Assembly: GCF_001425235.1 (NCBI RefSeq)
Contig: NZ_LMEA01000001.1
Span: 781,855 to 845,854 of the forward strand
Direction: 5' to 3'
From: Devosia sp. Root413D1
GTDB lineage: Bacteria; Pseudomonadota; Alphaproteobacteria; Rhizobiales; Devosiaceae
Length of the DNA stretch: 64,000 bases
Under the pieces are notes generated by a model. It made no database searches, had not been told where the DNA came from, and saw nothing but the letters and a program-made list of their open reading frames with translations. This document shows positions 9,928-16,980 of this stretch, in pieces (the stretch's first letter is position 1; every line of letters begins with the position of its first letter). The translations under genes were made by a program, and so were the position numbers.

Positions 9928-10884
9928 TTACTCCGGGATTGCTGGTGTCGAACGGCCGCCATAGGACTTGTCGATCAGGGTGACGTTGTTGCCGTGCAGC
10001 CAGCGATAGGGCTCGTGCATGGCGAGAACGCCGCGATCGATCCAGGGCTGGATGAAGCTTTCGAGCGGGGCGGTCAGGTAGTCCGGCTCGTCCTTCCGCT
10101 TCAGCAACTGGACATTGTAGTCGAGGATCGCCTCGGTGAACTCCTGCGTATAGCCGCCATTGTCGATGACCTCGAACCGGCCGTGGCAGGGGTAGATGGA
10201 TCTGGCGTCCATCGCCAGCAGCGAGCGATAGGTCATGATCTGCGCCGCGATTTCGCTGGTCATGGCCGGCGTGTTGAACGTCACCGTGTCCTCCACCGCA
10301 TCAGCGGCGAGCAGGATCTTGTCCTTGGGCAGGTAGGCGACGAGGTGGCCGAGCTGGTGCACGAAGGTCTCGATCAGCTCGATCTGCAGGTCCTTGAGCC
10401 ACACCGTCATCCGCCCATCGAACGTGCGGTTCGGCAGCACGACTTCCTTGACGCCGGGATAGTTCGGATCGCCCGCGCCCCAGATCTCGCCGCTCAGCAT
10501 CTGCGGTGCATAGGCCTGCAGCTTCCAGCGGGTGCGATTGGTCGCGATGATATCGGCGTTCTTATACAGGTAGTTGCCGGCGATGTGGTCGCAGTCCCAG
10601 TGCGAGTTGATCACCGAGACATGCTTGATCCCCATCTCGCGGATATAGGCGTCGATGGCTTCCATCTGCTCGCCATAGACCATGGTGTCGAAGACGATGG
10701 CGCTGTCGCCGCGGTGCAGCACGTAGTTGCAGACACCGAGCTTCATGTCGATGTTGCCCTTTATCCACTCTGGATAGTCGGCGATGTCGCGGCCATCGTA
10801 GAAGCAGATCAGGTAGTCGTTGATGTGCGAAACGCGCAGCTTCGGCACGAAGGGTTCGCGGACGATGTCCGTCTTGCTCGGCAT
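9928..10884 (-). CDS. Metallo-beta-lactamase-fold hydrolase in the guanidine-riboswitch locus
   Basis: 318 aa, start MPSKTDIVREPF at 10884 with a GGAGG Shine-Dalgarno. The MBL fold is indicated by the metal-site motif at residues 95-100, which reads HWDCDH. The usual pattern is HxHxDH, so the second His is Asp here. Later ligands fit: HQLGHLVAY, ILLAADAVED and IYPCHGR. It lies directly downstream of the riboswitch-controlled binding-protein gene, 135 bases away and on the same strand, with a palindromic repeat between. It may be expressed from the same guanidine-responsive transcript. A role in hydrolysing the imported nitrogen compound is inference only. Confidence 0.83.
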   Translation of the reverse strand: MPSKTDIVREPFVPKLRVSHINDYLICFYDGRDIADYPEWIKGNIDMKLGVCNYVLHRGDSAIVFDTMVYGEQMEAIDAYIREMGIKHVSVINSHWDCDHIAGNYLYKNADIIATNRTRWKLQAYAPQMLSGEIWGAGDPNYPGVKEVVLPNRTFDGRMTVWLKDLQIELIETFVHQLGHLVAYLPKDKILLAADAVEDTVTFNTPAMTSEIAAQIMTYRSLLAMDARSIYPCHGRFEVIDNGGYTQEFTEAILDYNVQLLKRKDEPDYLTAPLESFIQPWIDRGVLAMHEPYRWLHGNNVTLIDKSYGGRSTPAIPE

Positions 10885-10930: not shown

Positions 10931-10999
10931 CGTGCTTTCGAGGCGGAAAAATCTGCAATCCCCGCCTTCGCGAGGACAGGCATTTTCCTGAAAGCACTC
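10931..10999. repeat. GCGCTTTC-type palindromic repeat, copy A
   Basis: The element runs from CGTGCTTTCGAGGCGGAAAA to TTTTCCTGAAAGCAC, with an inner CCCGCCTTCGCGAGGACAGG segment. It shares the TTTCGAG...GGAAAA and TTTTCC...GAAAGC arms with the copies at 14836-14888, 18867-18944 and 42429-42483. It sits between the SBP and MBL hydrolase genes. Confidence 0.75.
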
Positions 11000-11019: not shown

Positions 11020-12567
11020 TCACTCGGCCCAGCGCACCGAGCCGTAGTCGATATTGCCCGGCGCATAGGCGGCGCGGAGGTCGAGATCGACGAGGCCCTT
11101 GGGGGCGACCACCACGTCGTCGACGCCGACCAGCGGGATGAACAGGCCATTGTCGAAATACAGATGCCCTGCCTTCTCGTAGAGCGCGTTGCGCGCCGTG
11201 ATATCGGTCAGCGTACCGGCTTGCTGCAGCAGCGCATCGGCCTCGGGCAGGCCGCGGCCGTAGAAGTTGATCGGCGCGCCTGAGGCAAAGAAGATGCCTG
11301 ACTGGTTCTCGGGATGGAGCGCATCCGGGGTCAGCTTGCCGATGTAGAAGTCGGGGCCATCCGGATTGTCCTTGAGCCCGAATGCGGCGCCCTGCGGCAG
11401 GATGGTGACAGTGGCGTTGATGCCGATGCTGGCGAGCTGCGCGACCAGCAGGTCGCCGACACGGCCGAGCGCGTTCGACTCTTCGGTGCTGATGCCGATG
11501 GTGAGGGTGACCGGCCCCTTGGCCGTGACCGTGGCCTTGGCGGCTTCGAGGTCAGCAGGGAACACGACCGGGGCTACCGGGTCGAGCATGGCCTCGGGAT
11601 AGACCGACTTGGCCGGATGGCCGAAGGCGCCGAAGGCGTCTGCCACCCAGGTCGCCGGGTTGATGGCGGTGAGGAAGGCCTTGAGGACTTCAGGGTCGGC
11701 AAGCGGCCCGGTCGGCTTCACGAAGCCGATGATTTCCGATGTGCTGGGCGCCGCAGTTGCTTCGAGCTCGGGCGGAAGCGAGGCGAGCTGGGCCCACGGG
11801 TAGTTGGCGGGAACCGCGTCGGTTTCCTGCGCCTGCAGGTTCAGCACCTGCTGGCCGATATCGGGCACCAGTGGCAGCTCGATGGTCGAGAAGAACGGCG
11901 CCTTGCCGTAGTAGCTGTCATTGCGCTCGAGCGTGTAGCCCTGGCCGCGCTCGAAGCTCGTGAGCTTGAACGGCCCGGTGCCGTCGGCGTTGCTGTCGAG
12001 CCACGCGCCAGCCGCCTTGCCACCGCCATTGTCGGCGAGCGCCTTGGGGCTGATGACCTTGGGGCCCCAGGGGCTCGCGAAACTGTCGAGCAGCGAGGGC
12101 TGCGGCATGCCGAGCGTGATGACGACGGTCTTGTCGTCCGGTGCGGCGATGTCCTTCACGTTCCACAGGAAGTAGCTGAGGATCAGCTCGCTGTCGCGGC
12201 GACGCTCGAACGAGGTTTTGACCGCTGCGGCGTTGAATGGGGTGCCATCATGGAAGCTCGCGCCCTCGACGAGATTGAACGTGTAGGTGAGGCCATCGTC
12301 CGAGATGGTCCAGTCCTTGGCGAGGAGGCCGCGGATTTCGGCGCTGCCCGGCACGTATTCGACGAGACCCTCGTAGACATTGTTGATGGCGGCGAGGCCG
12401 TCCATCTCGAAGGCATTGTCCGGATCGAACGAGTCGAAGTCGGTGGCGATCGGCAGGCGCAGGGTTTCCTGGGCCTGGACAGCGCCAGCGGACAGGATGG
12501 CGAGAAGTGCAGCGCCGGCAAGCAGCCGGCCCGTGACGTGGCTGAATGGTTTCATTGTTGACGACAT
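11020..12567 (-). CDS. ABC transporter substrate-binding protein, family 5 (Dpp/Opp type)
   Basis: 515 aa with start MSSTMKPFSHVTGR at 12567, chosen because GGGAG lies just upstream and a normal signal peptide (LLAGAALLAILSAGAVQAQ) follows. The mature protein has the family 5 solute-binding fold (DFDSFDPDNAFEMDG, YEGLVEY, TYTFNLVEGASFHDGTPF). Homologues bind peptides, nickel, opines or small amines. The gene is headed by a guanidine-I riboswitch and a sigma-54 promoter, so the cargo is probably guanidine-related or another nitrogen source. The permeases and ATPase are in the separate upstream unit on the same strand. Confidence 0.87.
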   Translation of the reverse strand: MSSTMKPFSHVTGRLLAGAALLAILSAGAVQAQETLRLPIATDFDSFDPDNAFEMDGLAAINNVYEGLVEYVPGSAEIRGLLAKDWTISDDGLTYTFNLVEGASFHDGTPFNAAAVKTSFERRRDSELILSYFLWNVKDIAAPDDKTVVITLGMPQPSLLDSFASPWGPKVISPKALADNGGGKAAGAWLDSNADGTGPFKLTSFERGQGYTLERNDSYYGKAPFFSTIELPLVPDIGQQVLNLQAQETDAVPANYPWAQLASLPPELEATAAPSTSEIIGFVKPTGPLADPEVLKAFLTAINPATWVADAFGAFGHPAKSVYPEAMLDPVAPVVFPADLEAAKATVTAKGPVTLTIGISTEESNALGRVGDLLVAQLASIGINATVTILPQGAAFGLKDNPDGPDFYIGKLTPDALHPENQSGIFFASGAPINFYGRGLPEADALLQQAGTLTDITARNALYEKAGHLYFDNGLFIPLVGVDDVVVAPKGLVDLDLRAAYAPGNIDYGSVRWAE

Positions 12568-12574
12568 GAGTCGC

Positions 12575-12590
12575 TCCCTTGAACAGGGAT
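12575..12590 (-). promoter_or_regulatory. Shine-Dalgarno sequestering hairpin of riboswitch 1
   Basis: On the minus strand TCCCT (12589-12585) can pair with AGGGA (12579-12575) across a GTTCA loop, hiding the Shine-Dalgarno AGGGAG that serves the ATG at 12567. ATCCCT (12590-12585) can instead pair with AGGGAT at 12615-12610 at the end of the aptamer, which would free the site. This is a hand-built model; the matching arrangement occurs in riboswitch 2. Confidence 0.6.
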
Positions 12591-12605
12591 CGACGGACCA
12601 TCGTC

Positions 12606-12733
12606 GCCAATCCCTTGGCTTACGAGGTCTCCCGGGCTTTTGTCCCGCCGTGCGTCCGGCGGACTGTGGCGCCCGCCGGTGGCAGCTCTCGGACCAGACA
12701 CGCAAAAAGCGTCGGAACCCTAGCCACCAGTCT
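12606..12733 (-). promoter_or_regulatory. ykkC / guanidine-I riboswitch 1 (upstream of SBP gene)
   Basis: Reading the minus strand, the conserved ykkC blocks appear in order: CTAGGGTTCCG, then GGTCCGAGAG, then ACGGCGGGACAAAAGCCCG followed by GGAGA. The P1 arms TGGCT (12726-12722) and AGCCA (12620-12616) close the aptamer. The P3 block matches the guanidine-I form rather than the ppGpp or PRPP variants as far as I can recall. Immediately after P1, GCCAA-GGGA-TTGGC (12619-12606) can form a competing hairpin. The element is ON-type in known family members. The controlled gene is the SBP at 11020-12567. Confidence 0.88.
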
Positions 12734-12744
12734 CGGGGATGACG

Positions 12745-12762
12745 ATGCAAGGGTCATGCCAG
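12745..12762 (-). promoter_or_regulatory. Sigma-54 (-24/-12) promoter of the SBP unit
   Basis: The minus strand reads CTGGCATGACCCTTGCAT, one mismatch from the consensus YTGGCACGRNNNTTGCW and with the correct 10-base spacing between GG and GC. The predicted start of transcription lies about 12 bases downstream, almost exactly where the riboswitch begins. This suggests nitrogen-type (RpoN) control on top of ligand control. Confidence 0.75.
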
Positions 12763-12910
12763 TGGTGTGGAATAGGTAAGGGGTTGGAATTGCTGACGAT
12801 TGCGACCGCGATGGGCGACATCAGCGGTTAGATATGACCAAAAAATATGCGGTAGAGCAAATCTGCACAATTGTAAGGCGTGATGTGGCTCGTTGTATGA
12901 CGAGATGGTG

Positions 12911-12946
12911 CAGTGGTCCTCCCCTGCGCAGCGGGGAGGACCACTG
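12911..12946. terminator. 14-bp perfect stem-loop after the permease gene
   Basis: CAGTGGTCCTCCCC (12911-12924) pairs perfectly with GGGGAGGACCACTG (12933-12946). It lies 15 bases past the stop of the minus-strand permease gene and separates that unit from the SBP unit. There is no clear T-run, so it may be an mRNA-stabilising or factor-assisted terminator hairpin. Confidence 0.6.
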
Positions 12947-12961
12947 AGAGACCGAGGCTTA

Positions 12962-13960
12962 CTAAAGCGCGATCCGCGGGTCCGCCACCGACTGCAGCAC
13001 TTCCACCAGCATCGTGACGAGGATGTAGAACGCCCCGAACACCATGGCGATGCCGAGCACCGCCGGCAGGTCGGAACTCCCGAACGACTGCACGGTGTAA
13101 AGACCGAGTCCCGGCCACGAGAAGATGCGCTCGACGATCAGGAGGTTCCCGTACAGCAGGCCGACCTGCAGCCCGAGCATGGCGAGCGGGGCCGAGGCGG
13201 CGTTGCGCAGGCCGTGGCGGAAGAAGATGCGGCCGCCGCTGAGGCCCTTGCCGCGCGCGGTGCGGATATAGGGTTGGCGCATCACATCGACGAGTGCCGA
13301 GTTGAGCGAGCGACCCACCGAAATGGCGATCGGGACCGACAGGGCCAGTGCCGGCAGGAAGAGGTGCCAGATGGCATTGAGGGCGATGTCGGGACGTCCC
13401 AGCAGCAGCCCGTCGAGGACGAAGAAGCCGGTCGGTCCGGTGAAGCGGCGGATGTCGAGGCGACCGCTGCCGGGGAACCAGCCGAGCTTGAACCAGAGGA
13501 AATAGGCGAGCAGCAGCGCGGTCAGGAAGATCGGGAACGAGCCTGCCGCCAGCATGCCGAGCCGTACGCCGCCCGAGCGGGTCATCGTCGTCTGCGCAAA
13601 GGCGAGGAGGAACGCGAAGCTGGTGCCCAGCAGCATGGCGAAGACGATCAGCTCGAGCGAGGCCGGACCGTATTTCAGCACATCGGCGGCGATCGGCTGC
13701 CGGGTGCGGATCGAGGTGCCGAGATCGCCCTGTGCGAGGCGGCTCATGAACTGCCCGTATTGCACCAGCAGCGGCTGATCGAGGCCGAGTTCGGCGCGGA
13801 TGCGCTCGATCGTTTCGACCGGCGCCGAGGGGCCGGCAAGGGCGCGGGCCGGGTCAGCCGGAATGATCGCCTGGAGGCAGAAGACGATGAAGCTCATCAC
13901 CACGAGGACGAGGACGAGGCCGCCGAGGCGTTTGGCGAGATATGCCAGCATGTCATGCAC
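12962..13960 (-). CDS. Dpp/Opp-type ABC permease (DppB-like)
   Basis: 332 aa from MHDMLAYL (13960), or 329 aa from the next Met at 13951; the first overlaps the preceding gene by 8 bases. It has the DppB layout: an N-terminal membrane segment, the soluble loop PADPARALAGPSAPVETI then IRAELGLDQPLLVQYG, and the EAA-type cytoplasmic loop RQPYIRTARGKGLSGGRI that contacts the ATPase. The end FGAFYILVTMLVEVLQSV then ADPRI is typical. It forms the channel with the DppC-like protein encoded next to it. It is the last gene of the unit headed by riboswitch 2. Confidence 0.87.
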   Translation of the reverse strand: MHDMLAYLAKRLGGLVLVLVVMSFIVFCLQAIIPADPARALAGPSAPVETIERIRAELGLDQPLLVQYGQFMSRLAQGDLGTSIRTRQPIAADVLKYGPASLELIVFAMLLGTSFAFLLAFAQTTMTRSGGVRLGMLAAGSFPIFLTALLLAYFLWFKLGWFPGSGRLDIRRFTGPTGFFVLDGLLLGRPDIALNAIWHLFLPALALSVPIAISVGRSLNSALVDVMRQPYIRTARGKGLSGGRIFFRHGLRNAASAPLAMLGLQVGLLYGNLLIVERIFSWPGLGLYTVQSFGSSDLPAVLGIAMVFGAFYILVTMLVEVLQSVADPRIAL

Positions 13961-14807
13961 CTCGAAGGGCGGAGCGGATGCCGTCGCCGGCGAGGTTGGC
14001 GAGGATCGACATTACGAAGATCACCAGCGCCGGGATGATGGGCAGCCACCAGTAGACGGTGAGGCTGTCGACCGAGCGTGAGGTCATGGCGCCGAGTTCG
14101 GGGGCCGGGGCGGGGAGGCCGAGGCCGAGGAAGGAGATCACCGACAGGGTCAGGATGATGTTGGCGACATCGAGCGTCGCCGCCACCGCCAGCGCCGGCA
14201 CCGCCCCCGGCAAGAGGTAGCGCAACATCAGGCGCGAGCCCTTCACCCCGGCGATGCGGGCTGCCTCGACATGCGGCCGGGCCCGGATGCGGCGGACTTC
14301 GTCGCGGGCCATGCGGGCATACCACGGCCACCAGAAGATGGTGATGGCGATCATGGTGTTGATGAGGCCGGGCCCGAGCGCCGCGACGACAGCGAGGGCG
14401 ATCAGCGTCGAGGGGAGCACGAGGAACAGCTCCACCACTCGCTGCAGCAGCGCATCGACCCAGCCGCCGACCATGCCGGCGAAGACGCCGATCACCGTGC
14501 CGATGAGCAAGGCGATGCCGATGACGGCGAGGCCCGGGAGCCAAGTGTAGCGGACACCGAGGACGACGCGCGAGAACAGGTCGCGGCCGATTTCGTCGGT
14601 GCCGAACCAGTGCGCGGCGTCGGGCGGCAGGTAGGCGGCGGCGACGCGCAGCATCGGGTCGTAGGGTACGAAAAACGGGCCAAAGATGGCGACGAGCGTG
14701 ATGACGAACACACCGGCAAGGCCGATGCGTTCGAGCCAGCCGACGCGGCGGAGCCACGCGAAGGCGGGGGGTGCGGTGGGGGCGGAGAGTTCGGTTGCGA
14801 GGGCCAT
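13953..14807 (-). CDS. Dpp/Opp-type ABC permease (DppC-like)
   Basis: 284 aa. An N-terminal membrane segment is followed by the family loop PYDPMLRVAAAYLPPDAAHW then FGTDEIGRDLFSRVV, and the EAA loop RRIRARPHVEAARIAG then KGSRL. These are hallmarks of DppC/OppC permeases. The stop overlaps the start of the DppB-like gene, and the start lies 12 bases after the ATPase gene, so ATPase, DppC and DppB are one tight operon. The order ATPase first and channel genes after is less common than the reverse. Confidence 0.88.
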   Translation of the reverse strand: MALATELSAPTAPPAFAWLRRVGWLERIGLAGVFVITLVAIFGPFFVPYDPMLRVAAAYLPPDAAHWFGTDEIGRDLFSRVVLGVRYTWLPGLAVIGIALLIGTVIGVFAGMVGGWVDALLQRVVELFLVLPSTLIALAVVAALGPGLINTMIAITIFWWPWYARMARDEVRRIRARPHVEAARIAGVKGSRLMLRYLLPGAVPALAVAATLDVANIILTLSVISFLGLGLPAPAPELGAMTSRSVDSLTVYWWLPIIPALVIFVMSILANLAGDGIRSALRGA

Positions 14808-14819
14808 TGTCGGTCTCGG

Positions 14820-16652
14820 TCAGCTGGCTAGAGCATCTGATTGGTCGCGCTCTCGAGGTGGAAAAGTCTGCAACTTTTCCTGAGAGCCCCCCAAGCGCGG
14901 CACGGCGCCGACCAGCATTTTCGTGTAGGGTGCTTGCGGGGCGGAAATGACCTGATCAGCCTCGCCGACTTCGACGAGATGGCCTTTCTCCAGCACCGCG
15001 ATGCGGTCGGCGATAAGCCGGGCAGCGGCGAGATCGTGGGTAACGAACAGCATGGCCATGCCCATGGAGCGGCGGAGGCTCCCGAGGAGGTTGAGCGTCT
15101 GCGCCGCGAGGGAAACGTCCATAGCGCTGATCGGCTCGTCGCAGAGCAGCAGCTTTGGCGGCACGACCACGGCGCGGGCGACGGTGATGCGCTGGCACTG
15201 GCCGCCAGAAAGTTCGCTCGGCAGGGCGTGCTGCAGCGCCGGATCGACGCCAACAAGCTTCAGCGCTTCAGCGATCTTCTTGTCCTGCTCATGCCGGCTA
15301 AGCCCCAGCGGGCGGAGGCGGTCGCGGATCTGTTCGCCGACGGTCAGCCAGGGTGTAAGTGCCGCGACGGCATCCTGAAACACCACTTGCGGCGGGATGC
15401 CGCCGAACCATGATACGTCGCCTTCGTCGGGGGCGAGGAGGCCCGCCGCGATGCGGAGCAGGGTGGATTTGCCCGAGCCACTTTCACCGACGAGCGCGAC
15501 GCACTCGCCCTGCTGGATCCTGAGGTCGATGCCGGCGAGGACCTGGGTCTGGCGGGCAGGACGTAGGATCCCGCGTTTCGGGCCGAAGCTCTTCTCGATG
15601 CGGTAGAGCTCGAGCGCGTTGGCTTCGCTCGCCGATGCCTCGGGCCAGCTCGGAGCTTCGCGGACGCGGGCGAGCAGGTCCGGCACCCGATTGGATTGGA
15701 AGCACGCGACCTGTCGCCCATCCTGCCGGCGCACCAGGTCCGGCTTGCGCTCGGAGCACTCGGCTTCGGCAAGGGGGCAGCGGGTGACGTAGTTGCAGTG
15801 CGCGCCGCTCGGCCGCGCCCGCAGCTGCTCGGAGGCGAGCGTCCCAAGCTGGCGGCTGCGGTCGGAATCGAGATCGAAGCGGGCGGCGAGGAGGCCCGCC
15901 GAGTAAGGGTGCGACGGCGCGGCGATCAGCGCGCGGGTGTGCCCGACTTCGGCAACGCGCCCGCCATAAAGCACCATCACCCGGTCGGCGAGTTCGGCGG
16001 CGACAGCGAGGTCGTGCGTGATGAAGAGCGTGGCGGTGTTGTGCTCACGGGCGAGATCGCGGAGCAGGGTGAGGATCTGCGCCTGCACCGTGACATCGAG
16101 TGCAGTCGTCGGCTCGTCGGCGATCAGCACGCGCGGCTTTGCCGCCATGCTCATCGCGATCAGCACGCGCTGGCGCTGGCCGCCCGACAGGCGGTGCGGC
16201 ATGTCGGCGGCAATACGCCTGGGGTTGGGCAGGCCGGTGCGGGCGAGCCACTCGAGCACTTCGTCGGCGCTGAGCCCGCTCTCACGCAACTGCGCGCCGA
16301 TGCTCATCGTGGGGTTGAGCGCGCCCATCGGATCCTGTGGGACAGCGCGGACGAGGCTAAGTCGGAGGTCGCGCAACTCACGCGGCCTGGCGCCGACGAT
16401 CTCGCGCCCGGCGAGGCGGATGCTGCCAGATATCTCGGGCTGCGCTTCGGCTGGCAGGAGCCCCTGCAGCGTCAGGCCGATGGTGGACTTGCCGGAGCCG
16501 CTCTCGCCGACGAGCGCCACGACTTCGCCCGGGGCGAGATCGAAGTCGATGCCGTCGAGCACAGTGCTGGCGCGGCCATCGCGGCTGAGGCGGACGTGGA
16601 GGCCGCGGATGGAAAGAACAGGGGCTTCGGGTTCGGTCGCTGGAAGAGTCAT
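14820..16652 (-). CDS. Fused double ATP-binding protein of the Dpp/Opp-type transporter
   Basis: 610 aa, equivalent to DppD and DppF joined in one chain. ABC domain 1 has Walker A GESGSGKST (about 53-61), LSGGQRQR and ADEPTTALD, then the oligopeptide C-terminal domain with the Cys cluster CNYVTRCPLAEAEC. Domain 2 has its own Walker A GESGSGKST, LSGGQCQRI and CDEPISAMD. The ATG at 16652 is preceded by GAGGGAG that lies within the riboswitch 2 expression platform. The last codons (KLQTFPPRERDQSD) are supplied by a copy of the GCGCTTTC repeat at 14836-14888, suggesting the repeat inserted at the 3' end and altered the tail. Confidence 0.9.
   Translation of the reverse strand: MTLPATEPEAPVLSIRGLHVRLSRDGRASTVLDGIDFDLAPGEVVALVGESGSGKSTIGLTLQGLLPAEAQPEISGSIRLAGREIVGARPRELRDLRLSLVRAVPQDPMGALNPTMSIGAQLRESGLSADEVLEWLARTGLPNPRRIAADMPHRLSGGQRQRVLIAMSMAAKPRVLIADEPTTALDVTVQAQILTLLRDLAREHNTATLFITHDLAVAAELADRVMVLYGGRVAEVGHTRALIAAPSHPYSAGLLAARFDLDSDRSRQLGTLASEQLRARPSGAHCNYVTRCPLAEAECSERKPDLVRRQDGRQVACFQSNRVPDLLARVREAPSWPEASASEANALELYRIEKSFGPKRGILRPARQTQVLAGIDLRIQQGECVALVGESGSGKSTLLRIAAGLLAPDEGDVSWFGGIPPQVVFQDAVAALTPWLTVGEQIRDRLRPLGLSRHEQDKKIAEALKLVGVDPALQHALPSELSGGQCQRITVARAVVVPPKLLLCDEPISAMDVSLAAQTLNLLGSLRRSMGMAMLFVTHDLAAARLIADRIAVLEKGHLVEVGEADQVISAPQAPYTKMLVGAVPRLGGSQEKLQTFPPRERDQSDALAS
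14836..14888. repeat. GCGCTTTC-type palindromic repeat, copy B (inside the ATPase gene end)
   Basis: TCTGATTGGTCGCGCTCTCG then AGGTGGAAAAGTCTGCAACT then TTTCCTGAGAGC matches the repeat copies A, C and D with small changes. Here it overlaps the last 20 or so codons of the minus-strand ATPase gene, so the repeat contributes coding sequence. Confidence 0.7.
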
Positions 16653-16655
16653 CGC

Positions 16656-16673
16656 TCCCTCACGTTGAGGGAT
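16656..16673 (-). promoter_or_regulatory. Shine-Dalgarno sequestering hairpin of riboswitch 2
   Basis: On the minus strand TCCCTC (16672-16667) can pair with GAGGGA (16661-16656) over an AACGT loop, masking the ribosome site of the ATG at 16652. ATCCCT (16673-16668) can alternatively pair with AGGGAT (16700-16695) right after the aptamer. The stem and loop differ in sequence from riboswitch 1 while the pairing is kept. Confidence 0.6.
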
Positions 16674-16690
16674 GACGAGACGCTGCGCTC

Positions 16691-16817
16691 GCCAATCCCT
16701 TGGCTAACGAGGTCTCCCGGGCTTTTGTCCCGCCGTGCACCTGGCGGGATGTCTCTCCCGGCCAGTGGCAGCTCTCGGACCAGCCGCGCCGAAGCGCCGG
16801 AACCCTAGCCACCAACT
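16691..16817 (-). promoter_or_regulatory. ykkC / guanidine-I riboswitch 2 (upstream of ATPase-permease unit)
   Basis: The same conserved blocks as riboswitch 1 appear on the minus strand: CTAGGGTTCCG, GGTCCGAGAG and ACGGCGGGACAAAAGCCCG with GGAGA. The P1 arms TGGCT (16811-16807) and AGCCA (16705-16701) close it. The variable stems differ from riboswitch 1 (for example GGCGCTTCGGCGC here against ACGCTTTTTGCGT there) but stay paired. The competing hairpin GCCAA-GGGA-TTGGC is identical (16704-16691). It controls the ATPase and two permease genes. Confidence 0.88.
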
Positions 16818-16829
16818 CTCAGCTAGTGA

Positions 16830-16846
16830 AGCAAGCTCCGTGCCAG
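16830..16846 (-). promoter_or_regulatory. Sigma-54 (-24/-12) promoter of the ATPase-permease unit
   Basis: The minus strand reads CTGGCACGGAGCTTGCT, a full match to YTGGCACGRNNNTTGCW. Transcription would begin about 12 bases downstream, at the edge of riboswitch 2. Together with the similar site at 12745-12762 it shows both halves of the transporter are under RpoN. Confidence 0.8.
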
Positions 16847-16895
16847 GCGGGAACGGCCAGAAACTATGGAATTATGCGGGTCGACACATCCACGC

Positions 16896-16912
16896 TGCTC
16901 CAATTCTGAGCA
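16896..16912. promoter_or_regulatory. Possible enhancer-binding-protein site
   Basis: TGCTC-N7-GAGCA is a dyad about 50 bases upstream of the -24 element at 16830-16846, a plausible distance for a sigma-54 activator site. It does not match the NtrC consensus closely. No activator gene is visible nearby. Confidence 0.3.
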
Positions 16913-16980
16913 ACGCACATCGCCTTGCTTATTGGATTGGCATAACGGCCGGCAGCCGACAGCAACTGGATGCCTTGGCG

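Follow-up and report, generated by a model that had tools for sequence, protein, structure and literature searches.

Predicted sigma-54 promoters are fused to guanidine-I riboswitches at a cluster-C importer of Devosia and across its bacterial order

Introduction

Why would the two halves of one ABC importer each be preceded by a guanidine-I riboswitch and by a promoter of the sigma-54 type? This question is raised by a 64-kb stretch of Devosia DNA (the window, by which we mean the whole of this stretch), for which a sequence-only reading had proposed such an arrangement. Among the titles and abstract openings of the open-licence literature, we found no report of a sigma-54/guanidine-I coupling and none that places the importer under guanidine-I. 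The portion consulted of a 2025 review of guanidine biology contains no mention of sigma or NtrC (PMC12186494). Likewise, a survey of the sigma-54 regulon, in the portion available to us, does not contain 'guanidin' and has 'riboswitch' in one reference title only (PMC12316311).

Results

Our analyses have shown that both leaders of the window are guanidine-I by covariance model; guanidine binding and gene activation are predicted from this assignment. Using cmscan, aptamer 1 (12627..12734, minus strand) scored 82.5 bits and aptamer 2 (16712..16819, minus strand) 80.4 bits against RF00442. Both are full length (model positions 1-107) and lie above the gathering score of 63. A permissive scan of positions 12500-16950 with all 4227 Rfam families returned no further family up to E=1, and the aptamers are therefore without a competing ppGpp, PRPP or NDP subclass. 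The identification made earlier from the letters was thus upheld, as were the upper ends given for the two aptamers (within 1-2 nt), but the lower ends had been placed 21 nt too low.

The genes behind the aptamers form two units on the minus strand, in the layout that had been described. Unit 1 consists of a solute-binding protein (SBP) of the SBP_bac_5 type (cluster C, 515 aa, PF00496 match; 11020..12567) and an MBL-fold hydrolase (318 aa; 9928..10884) that is conserved downstream of the SBP; from their adjacency on the same strand, the two are presumably co-transcribed. Unit 2 consists of a fused two-domain ABC ATPase of the Dpp/Opp/Nik type (610 aa; 14820..16652), a DppC/NikC-type permease (284 aa; 13953..14807) and a DppB/NikB-type permease (329 aa; 12962..13951). 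That these are two halves of one transporter is supported by the orthologous loci, which are arranged as two units in six genomes and as a single operon in G067. A long inverted repeat (12911..12946), read from the sequence, separates the permease gene from promoter 1; since a T-run is absent on both sides, it is not a classic terminator. An aldo/keto reductase gene follows the hydrolase (9744-8713). It probably does not belong to the system, because in L049 and L056, two relatives read past the hydrolase, no such gene follows.

An expression platform of the same design lies behind each aptamer. Platform 1 (12568..12626, minus strand) contains GCCAAGGGATTGGC, an anti-Shine-Dalgarno (anti-SD) element ATCCCT and a Shine-Dalgarno (SD) element AAGGGAG, which can form two alternative hairpins; platform 2 (16653..16711, minus strand) contains GCCAAGGGATTGGC, ATCCCTC and GAGGGAG. 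Most leaders of the family likewise carry, after the aptamer, this first element (R1) or a close variant, an anti-SD of the AATCCCT type and a purine-rich SD, and the anti-SD is able to pair with either the SD or R1. Between these folds the median difference is 2.2 kcal/mol, and up to 7.6 in single leaders, among 32 distinct leaders (37 leaders, minus two with another platform, with identical ones merged). An intrinsic terminator was considered as the common platform and rejected, since neither importer leader of the window has a U-run after the first hairpin; such a run is present in many guanidine-type-SBP leaders of the family. The missing U-run favours translational control, which is the most likely mode for the window leaders. 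Because guanidine-I is an ON switch elsewhere (PMC11410670), we infer that guanidine would choose the fold in which the Shine-Dalgarno sequence is free. Without guanidine, the leader would block the first gene, and with guanidine bound the gene would be expressed. In this competition of two near-equal hairpins, anti-SD:SD pairing would hide the Shine-Dalgarno sequence and R1:anti-SD pairing would free it.

Directly ahead of each aptamer is a -24/-12 site. We searched both strands of all 64 kb for TGGCACGN4TTGCW with at most one mismatch, using the published Sinorhizobium consensus (as given in the parts consulted of PMC2573895 and PMC2245857). Exactly two matches were found, at 16845-16830 and 12761-12746. 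Site 1 (12746..12761, minus strand; TGGCATGACCCTTGCA) agrees with the consensus at 11/12 positions, with one mismatch, and site 2 (16830..16845, minus strand; TGGCACGGAGCTTGCT) is perfect (12/12). Shuffled versions of the 64 kb gave a mean of 0.60 matches, and 13 of 100 shuffles reached two or more; what is remarkable is therefore where the two sites lie and not how many there are. The C of the -12 element lies 13 nt from aptamer position 1 at site 1 and 12 nt at site 2. When the start is placed 12 nt after the C in the -12 GC, the predicted +1 of promoter 2 is 16819, which is aptamer position 1, and that of promoter 1 is 12735, 1 nt ahead of its aptamer. The proposal of one perfect and one single-mismatch site, placed for transcription to start at the aptamer edge, is in keeping with these results.

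The sites could still have arisen by chance or have been inherited without function, with transcription from sigma-70 promoters, and the shuffles that reach two matches agree with such an origin. Comparison with other genomes argues strongly against it. Guanidine-I is present in 25 of 136 genomes of the family (23 above cut-off) and in 101 of 397 genomes of the order (77 above cut-off). The family and order searches yielded 123 aptamers above cut-off, and removal of one at a contig edge without flank (G445) left 122. Each was given the best site score out of 12 within the last 60 nt before the aptamer plus 10 nt of the aptamer. A site of at least 10/12 was found next to 106 of the 122 aptamers, a count that is made up of related genomes and hence not of independent events. 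Scores of 12, 11, 10 and 9 were obtained for 34, 54, 18 and five aptamers, respectively, and 11 had less or none. Sites of at least 10/12 occur in 19 of 20 families, 35 of 42 genera and 81 of 94 genomes. Their spacing is also conserved, with 11-16 nt between the C of the -12 element and aptamer position 1 in 98/106, 6-10 nt in six, and 17 and 40 nt once each. The site 40 nt from its aptamer belongs to L104.

Chance is rejected as the origin of this coupling, because in four controls (-160 to -90, -300 to -230, shuffled flanks and the opposite strand) 0/122 reached 10/12, each. We also reject the idea that riboswitches of these bacteria generally have such a promoter, since no site of at least 10/12 was present at TPP (0/26) or glycine (0/26) riboswitches (26 usable of 30 loci each, four each having been dropped at contig edges). 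A looser, earlier TPP test (both strands, 260 nt) had given 1/30 at 10/12. Outside the order, 7 of 45 aptamers have a site of at least 10/12 in the last 60 nt, two of them at 13-14 nt (L242 and L238) and five at 35-45 nt. With two tight sites among 45, the tight fusion belongs mainly to this order and is not a trait of the whole phylum.

Within the family of the window, TGGCA and TTGC are found at 38 of 38 aptamers above cut-off, with no score filter applied. The upstream flanks of the orthologues in three genomes can hardly be aligned, and the sigma-54 site is nonetheless kept. Sub-cut-off aptamers were excluded from all counts except for one of 58.7 bits in the set of 107 promoters used below; three occur in the family, of which the 58.7-bit one scores 12/12 and the other two are without a site. 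Exceptions exist: scores under 10 were obtained for 16 of the 122 aptamers. By eye, five of these have a correctly placed 9/12 site, L108 and L140 have the -24 half in place and the -12 half altered, and nine have no recognisable site. Some of the nine show TATACT-like -10 letters there (by eye), as transcription from sigma-70 promoters would predict. The first genes of the nine siteless leaders encode guanidinase-like proteins (2), UAAP proteins (2), guanidine-type SBPs (2), an MBL protein (1) and products not assigned (2), and among these nine we saw no simple rule by first-gene function. Given the 106/122 against 0/122 in every control, and the sites kept at 38 of 38 family aptamers while flanks diverge, we regard functionless sites as extremely unlikely. 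Taken together, these comparisons indicate that predicted sigma-54 coupling is the rule for the guanidine-I leaders of this order and not a peculiarity of the importer. The importer-associated aptamers all follow it (13/13 score 11-12). The double control that had been thought unusual for a Dpp/Opp-type importer is thus supported as a coupling but is not special to the importer.

Promoters of the sigma-54 type require an activator, and we were curious about its identity. 
Upstream of promoter 2 lies an NtrC-like box (16896..16912; TGCTCAGAATTGGAGCA) that scores 9/10, with its centre 59 nt upstream of the promoter's first T. The best box of promoter 1 scores 8/10 and is 161 nt away; its orthologues have a box of 10/10 in G012 and 9/10 in G050. 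We scored the palindrome TGCNCAN5TGNGCA with a threshold of at least 9/10. This form was defined after weaker matches to the classical NtrC palindrome (TGCAC-N7-GTGCA) had been viewed, and replaced the latter, which showed weaker enrichment. The box was found upstream of 38 of 107 sigma-54/guanidine-I promoters versus 1.3% of shuffles, with its centre 50-113 nt from the sigma-54 site in 34/38; five of the 13 promoters linked to the importer have it. In the 16 leaders with low sigma-54 scores, it is present in 5/7 with an imperfect site and in 0/9 without a site, and it was found at 0/45 leaders outside the order. These counts indicate that the box follows the sigma-54 promoter. It also recurs ahead of P-II genes in this genome and its relatives, in 15 of 25 regions (a raw count; 30 P-II loci, 27 scanned, two skipped at contig edges, and L295, L297 and L298 left out). 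Both P-II genes of this genome have it, and one of them (L277) combines it with an 11/12 sigma-54 site.

The genome encodes RpoN (TIGR02395, 418 bits, cut-off 277) as well as NtrC (682 bits), NtrX (647) and FlbD (808), each above its curated cut-off (559, 600 and 750, respectively). Seven proteins exceed the PF00158 cut-off and four of them are strong, three being NtrC, NtrX and FlbD. Since the box is present at these promoters, tracks the site and recurs at P-II promoters, NtrC is the likely activator. An enhancer-binding protein other than NtrC could drive the promoters instead, in line with the lack of a clear box at promoter 1 and with the presence of NtrX and of a fourth strong PF00158 protein. 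We consider this unlikely, because the box matches that of the P-II promoters, FlbD is of the flagellar type and none of the strong activators is encoded within the window locus. Overall, the sequence support for RpoN/NtrC control far exceeds what the window alone shows, and the control itself is a prediction.

The importer is less readily named. Its SBP belongs to PF00496 (191 bits, cut-off 32.4), yet it falls below the curated cut-offs of all nine matched NCBIfam models, which include DppA (65.6 bits, cut-off 1005), NikA (114.7 bits, cut-off 393) and GsiB. With the cluster-C importers (DppA, NikA, GsiB, AapF, MoaA) it shares the Pfam family, the fold, two permease genes and two ATPase domains; it differs in its low identity, its scores under those cut-offs and its guanidine-I regulation. 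'Dpp-type', the name first given to it, is therefore sound at the level of fold but not as identity with DppA, NikA or GsiB. The SBP model (pLDDT 83.6) has a Foldseek probability of 1.00 among the 50 matches listed, and identity to solved relatives is 17-25% among the matches listed. The hydrolase model (pLDDT 86.7) is nearest to 8d2z and to chlorothalonil dehalogenase 6uxu. We considered reading the substrate from structure, however, the SBP resembles many cluster-C proteins about equally and neither model names a ligand. In a profile alignment, the SBP keeps the Asp at DppA D436, and DppA R383 aligns to a Thr beside a Glu (by eye). We take both residues to matter in DppA, in part from an entry title. 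This pattern hints weakly at a cationic ligand without the carboxylate of a dipeptide.

It is conceivable that the importer is a nickel or nickel-metallophore system that supplies a nickel-dependent guanidinase, as the guanidinase GdmH requires Ni (PMC12186494, portion consulted) and the importer shows NikA/NikD-type similarity, with its ATPase above the NikD cut-off. The shortfall of the SBP against NikA, the biotin carboxylase route present in the genome and the lack of an agmatinase-like gene among the importer loci inspected make this reading very improbable.

Relatives of the importer provide a further view of its associations. The SBP lies under a sigma-54/guanidine-I gate in seven family genomes. 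Homologues (E<=1e-80) were found in eight of the 136 family genomes, and the seven strongest are the guanidine-I ones; in the eighth genome (G086), the homologue is on a different contig from that genome's aptamer. G045 and G048 have the importer genes inside their carboxylase locus, and G067 has them beside it. Six named Devosia records contain the SBP, and at least four of the six have a guanidine-I aptamer there. Records named Devosia sp. Root685 and Leaf420 carry the locus. The hydrolase is 67-81% identical in five of these six loci and 29% identical in the sixth; its MBL motif is HxDxDH in the window and HxHxDH in the 29% homologue of L303. The locus of Histidinibacterium lentulum has the aptamer and no sigma-54 site. 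None of ten rhizobial SBP loci (51-61% identity) has guanidine-I within about 8 kb on each side, so that the link between importer and guanidine-I is not obligatory. Either the importer joined the regulon in the Devosia line, or in rhizobia it dropped out. In the two rhizobial loci typed for both, a PAS kinase and a FixJ-type regulator adjoin the importer, and a PAS kinase was seen in a third; as clues to the substrate these neighbours were set aside, since they point to a regulator.

The window's genome (5.85 Mb) has three guanidine-I aptamers. The third precedes an SBP of the TIGR03427 cluster, and this sigma-54 unit is on another contig than the importer. Its locus also encodes a permease, a UAAP protein (the UAAP/DUF1989 family is COG3665), a guanidine/urea carboxylase with 78% identity and an allophanate hydrolase-like frame of 138 aa. 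By its shared predicted gate and its carboxylase-locus neighbours in relatives, the importer is linked to the guanidine-assimilation regulon.

Discussion

Based on these observations, we consider it very probable that each unit of the window is a two-input AND gate, with NtrC/RpoN as one input and the guanidine leader as the other, acting on the importer halves and the hydrolase within a guanidine-nitrogen regulon. Under nitrogen limitation, phosphorylated NtrC bound upstream would activate the RpoN holoenzyme at the -24/-12 site; we infer this input from where the site lies, from the NtrC-like boxes and from the presence of genes for NtrC and RpoN. The transcript would begin at the first base of the aptamer, and the leader would then add its requirement for guanidine. 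Both gates together would switch on the two halves of one cluster-C importer plus the MBL-fold hydrolase, and the core of the regulon (guanidine-type SBP, carboxyguanidine deiminase-type proteins and guanidine/urea carboxylase) would stand elsewhere under the third gate. In Devosia-like bacteria, genes for guanidine uptake and use, the unusual peptide-type importer included, would thus probably be expressed only if a shortage of nitrogen coincides with the presence of guanidine.

Two known kinds of system are combined in this arrangement. In common with guanidine-I (RF00442) carboxylase operons, it has the aptamer, its position in the leader and the core genes (SBP TIGR03427, UAAP, carboxylase and allophanate hydrolase). 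In contrast to them, it has a fused -24/-12 promoter, is accompanied by NtrC-like boxes and occurs twice at a cluster-C importer. NtrC/RpoN scavenging promoters of the glnK and glnB type share with it the consensus site and the upstream box, which is also that of its own P-II promoters, but here the transcript opens with a riboswitch, which would add a requirement for the substrate.

As to what the importer carries, free guanidine is one candidate, which would make it an additional system next to the guanidine ABC importer already known. Guanidine is the ligand of the riboswitch, three genomes have the importer genes inside or adjacent to the carboxylase locus, and the D436/R383 pattern would suit such a ligand. 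Nevertheless, the genome already has an importer of the TIGR03427 type with its own gate, peptides or opine-like compounds are, by the entry titles, the ligands of several solved cluster-C relatives, and the MBL partner would be left without a role. We therefore regard import of free guanidine as rather unlikely. As a weak suggestion, the importer would probably carry a compound that either bears guanidine or gives rise to it, and the MBL enzyme would process it. In its fullest form, which we put forward tentatively and with more doubt than belief, the importer and the MBL hydrolase(s) may be the way in for a natural compound, so far unrecognised, that bears guanidine. The hydrolase would release guanidine or a precursor of it, guanidine would signal through its own riboswitches, and NtrC would place the entire path under nitrogen control.

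Conclusion

With the coupling described here, the use of guanidine would be governed by the general nitrogen-starvation system throughout a bacterial order. This is an argument for guanidine being a food here and not only a poison. A riboswitch that opens at the predicted start base of an activator-dependent promoter would also be a clean natural AND gate. Where in nature the free guanidine assimilated by bacteria comes from is described as an open question (PMC12186494, portion consulted). The importer and hydrolase offer handles on the origin of environmental guanidine and, if they do form an entry route, one such natural source would be named.

Guanidine-I aptamers and MBL-fold genes also occur together in another family of the Rhizobiales. 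At locus L151 an MBL-fold gene (L151:3029-4198) is immediately preceded by a guanidine-I aptamer, here without a sigma-54 site, and this locus is a second link between guanidine-I and MBL enzymes. Guanidine-I operons also carry a gene of a single cluster at L167:4263-5435 and L134:6675-7721, in both cases in position two, directly 3′ of the gene for the guanidine-type (TIGR03427-type) binding protein. The L167 member was typed as a 2OG-Fe(II) oxygenase, and oxidation of a guanidino compound is a candidate role for the gene.

Three carboxylase loci were found to hold guanidine-II aptamers (L300:4063-4112, L301:3992-4041 and L303:3556-3507) as well as the guanidine-I gates.

The rhizobial importer homologues at L305, L309 and L312 lack the guanidine-I riboswitch and adjoin a PAS histidine kinase gene; two of these loci also yielded a typed FixJ-type regulator. 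Relative to the riboswitch-bearing loci, this is an apparent exchange of regulator.

The 20-nt core of a dispersed palindromic repeat, CGAGGYGGAAAARTCTGCAA, is present in 83 genome copies (≤2 mismatches), versus none for its reversed pattern. Within the window it lies in the gap between the SBP and hydrolase genes (10939-10958), at the permease-ATPase junction, within the 3′ end of the ATPase frame as annotated (14854-14873), and at 18926-18907.

Outside the order, guanidine-I aptamers with strong sigma-54 sites 35-45 nt upstream were observed at L249, L253, L261 and L243, and these pairings have perhaps arisen independently.
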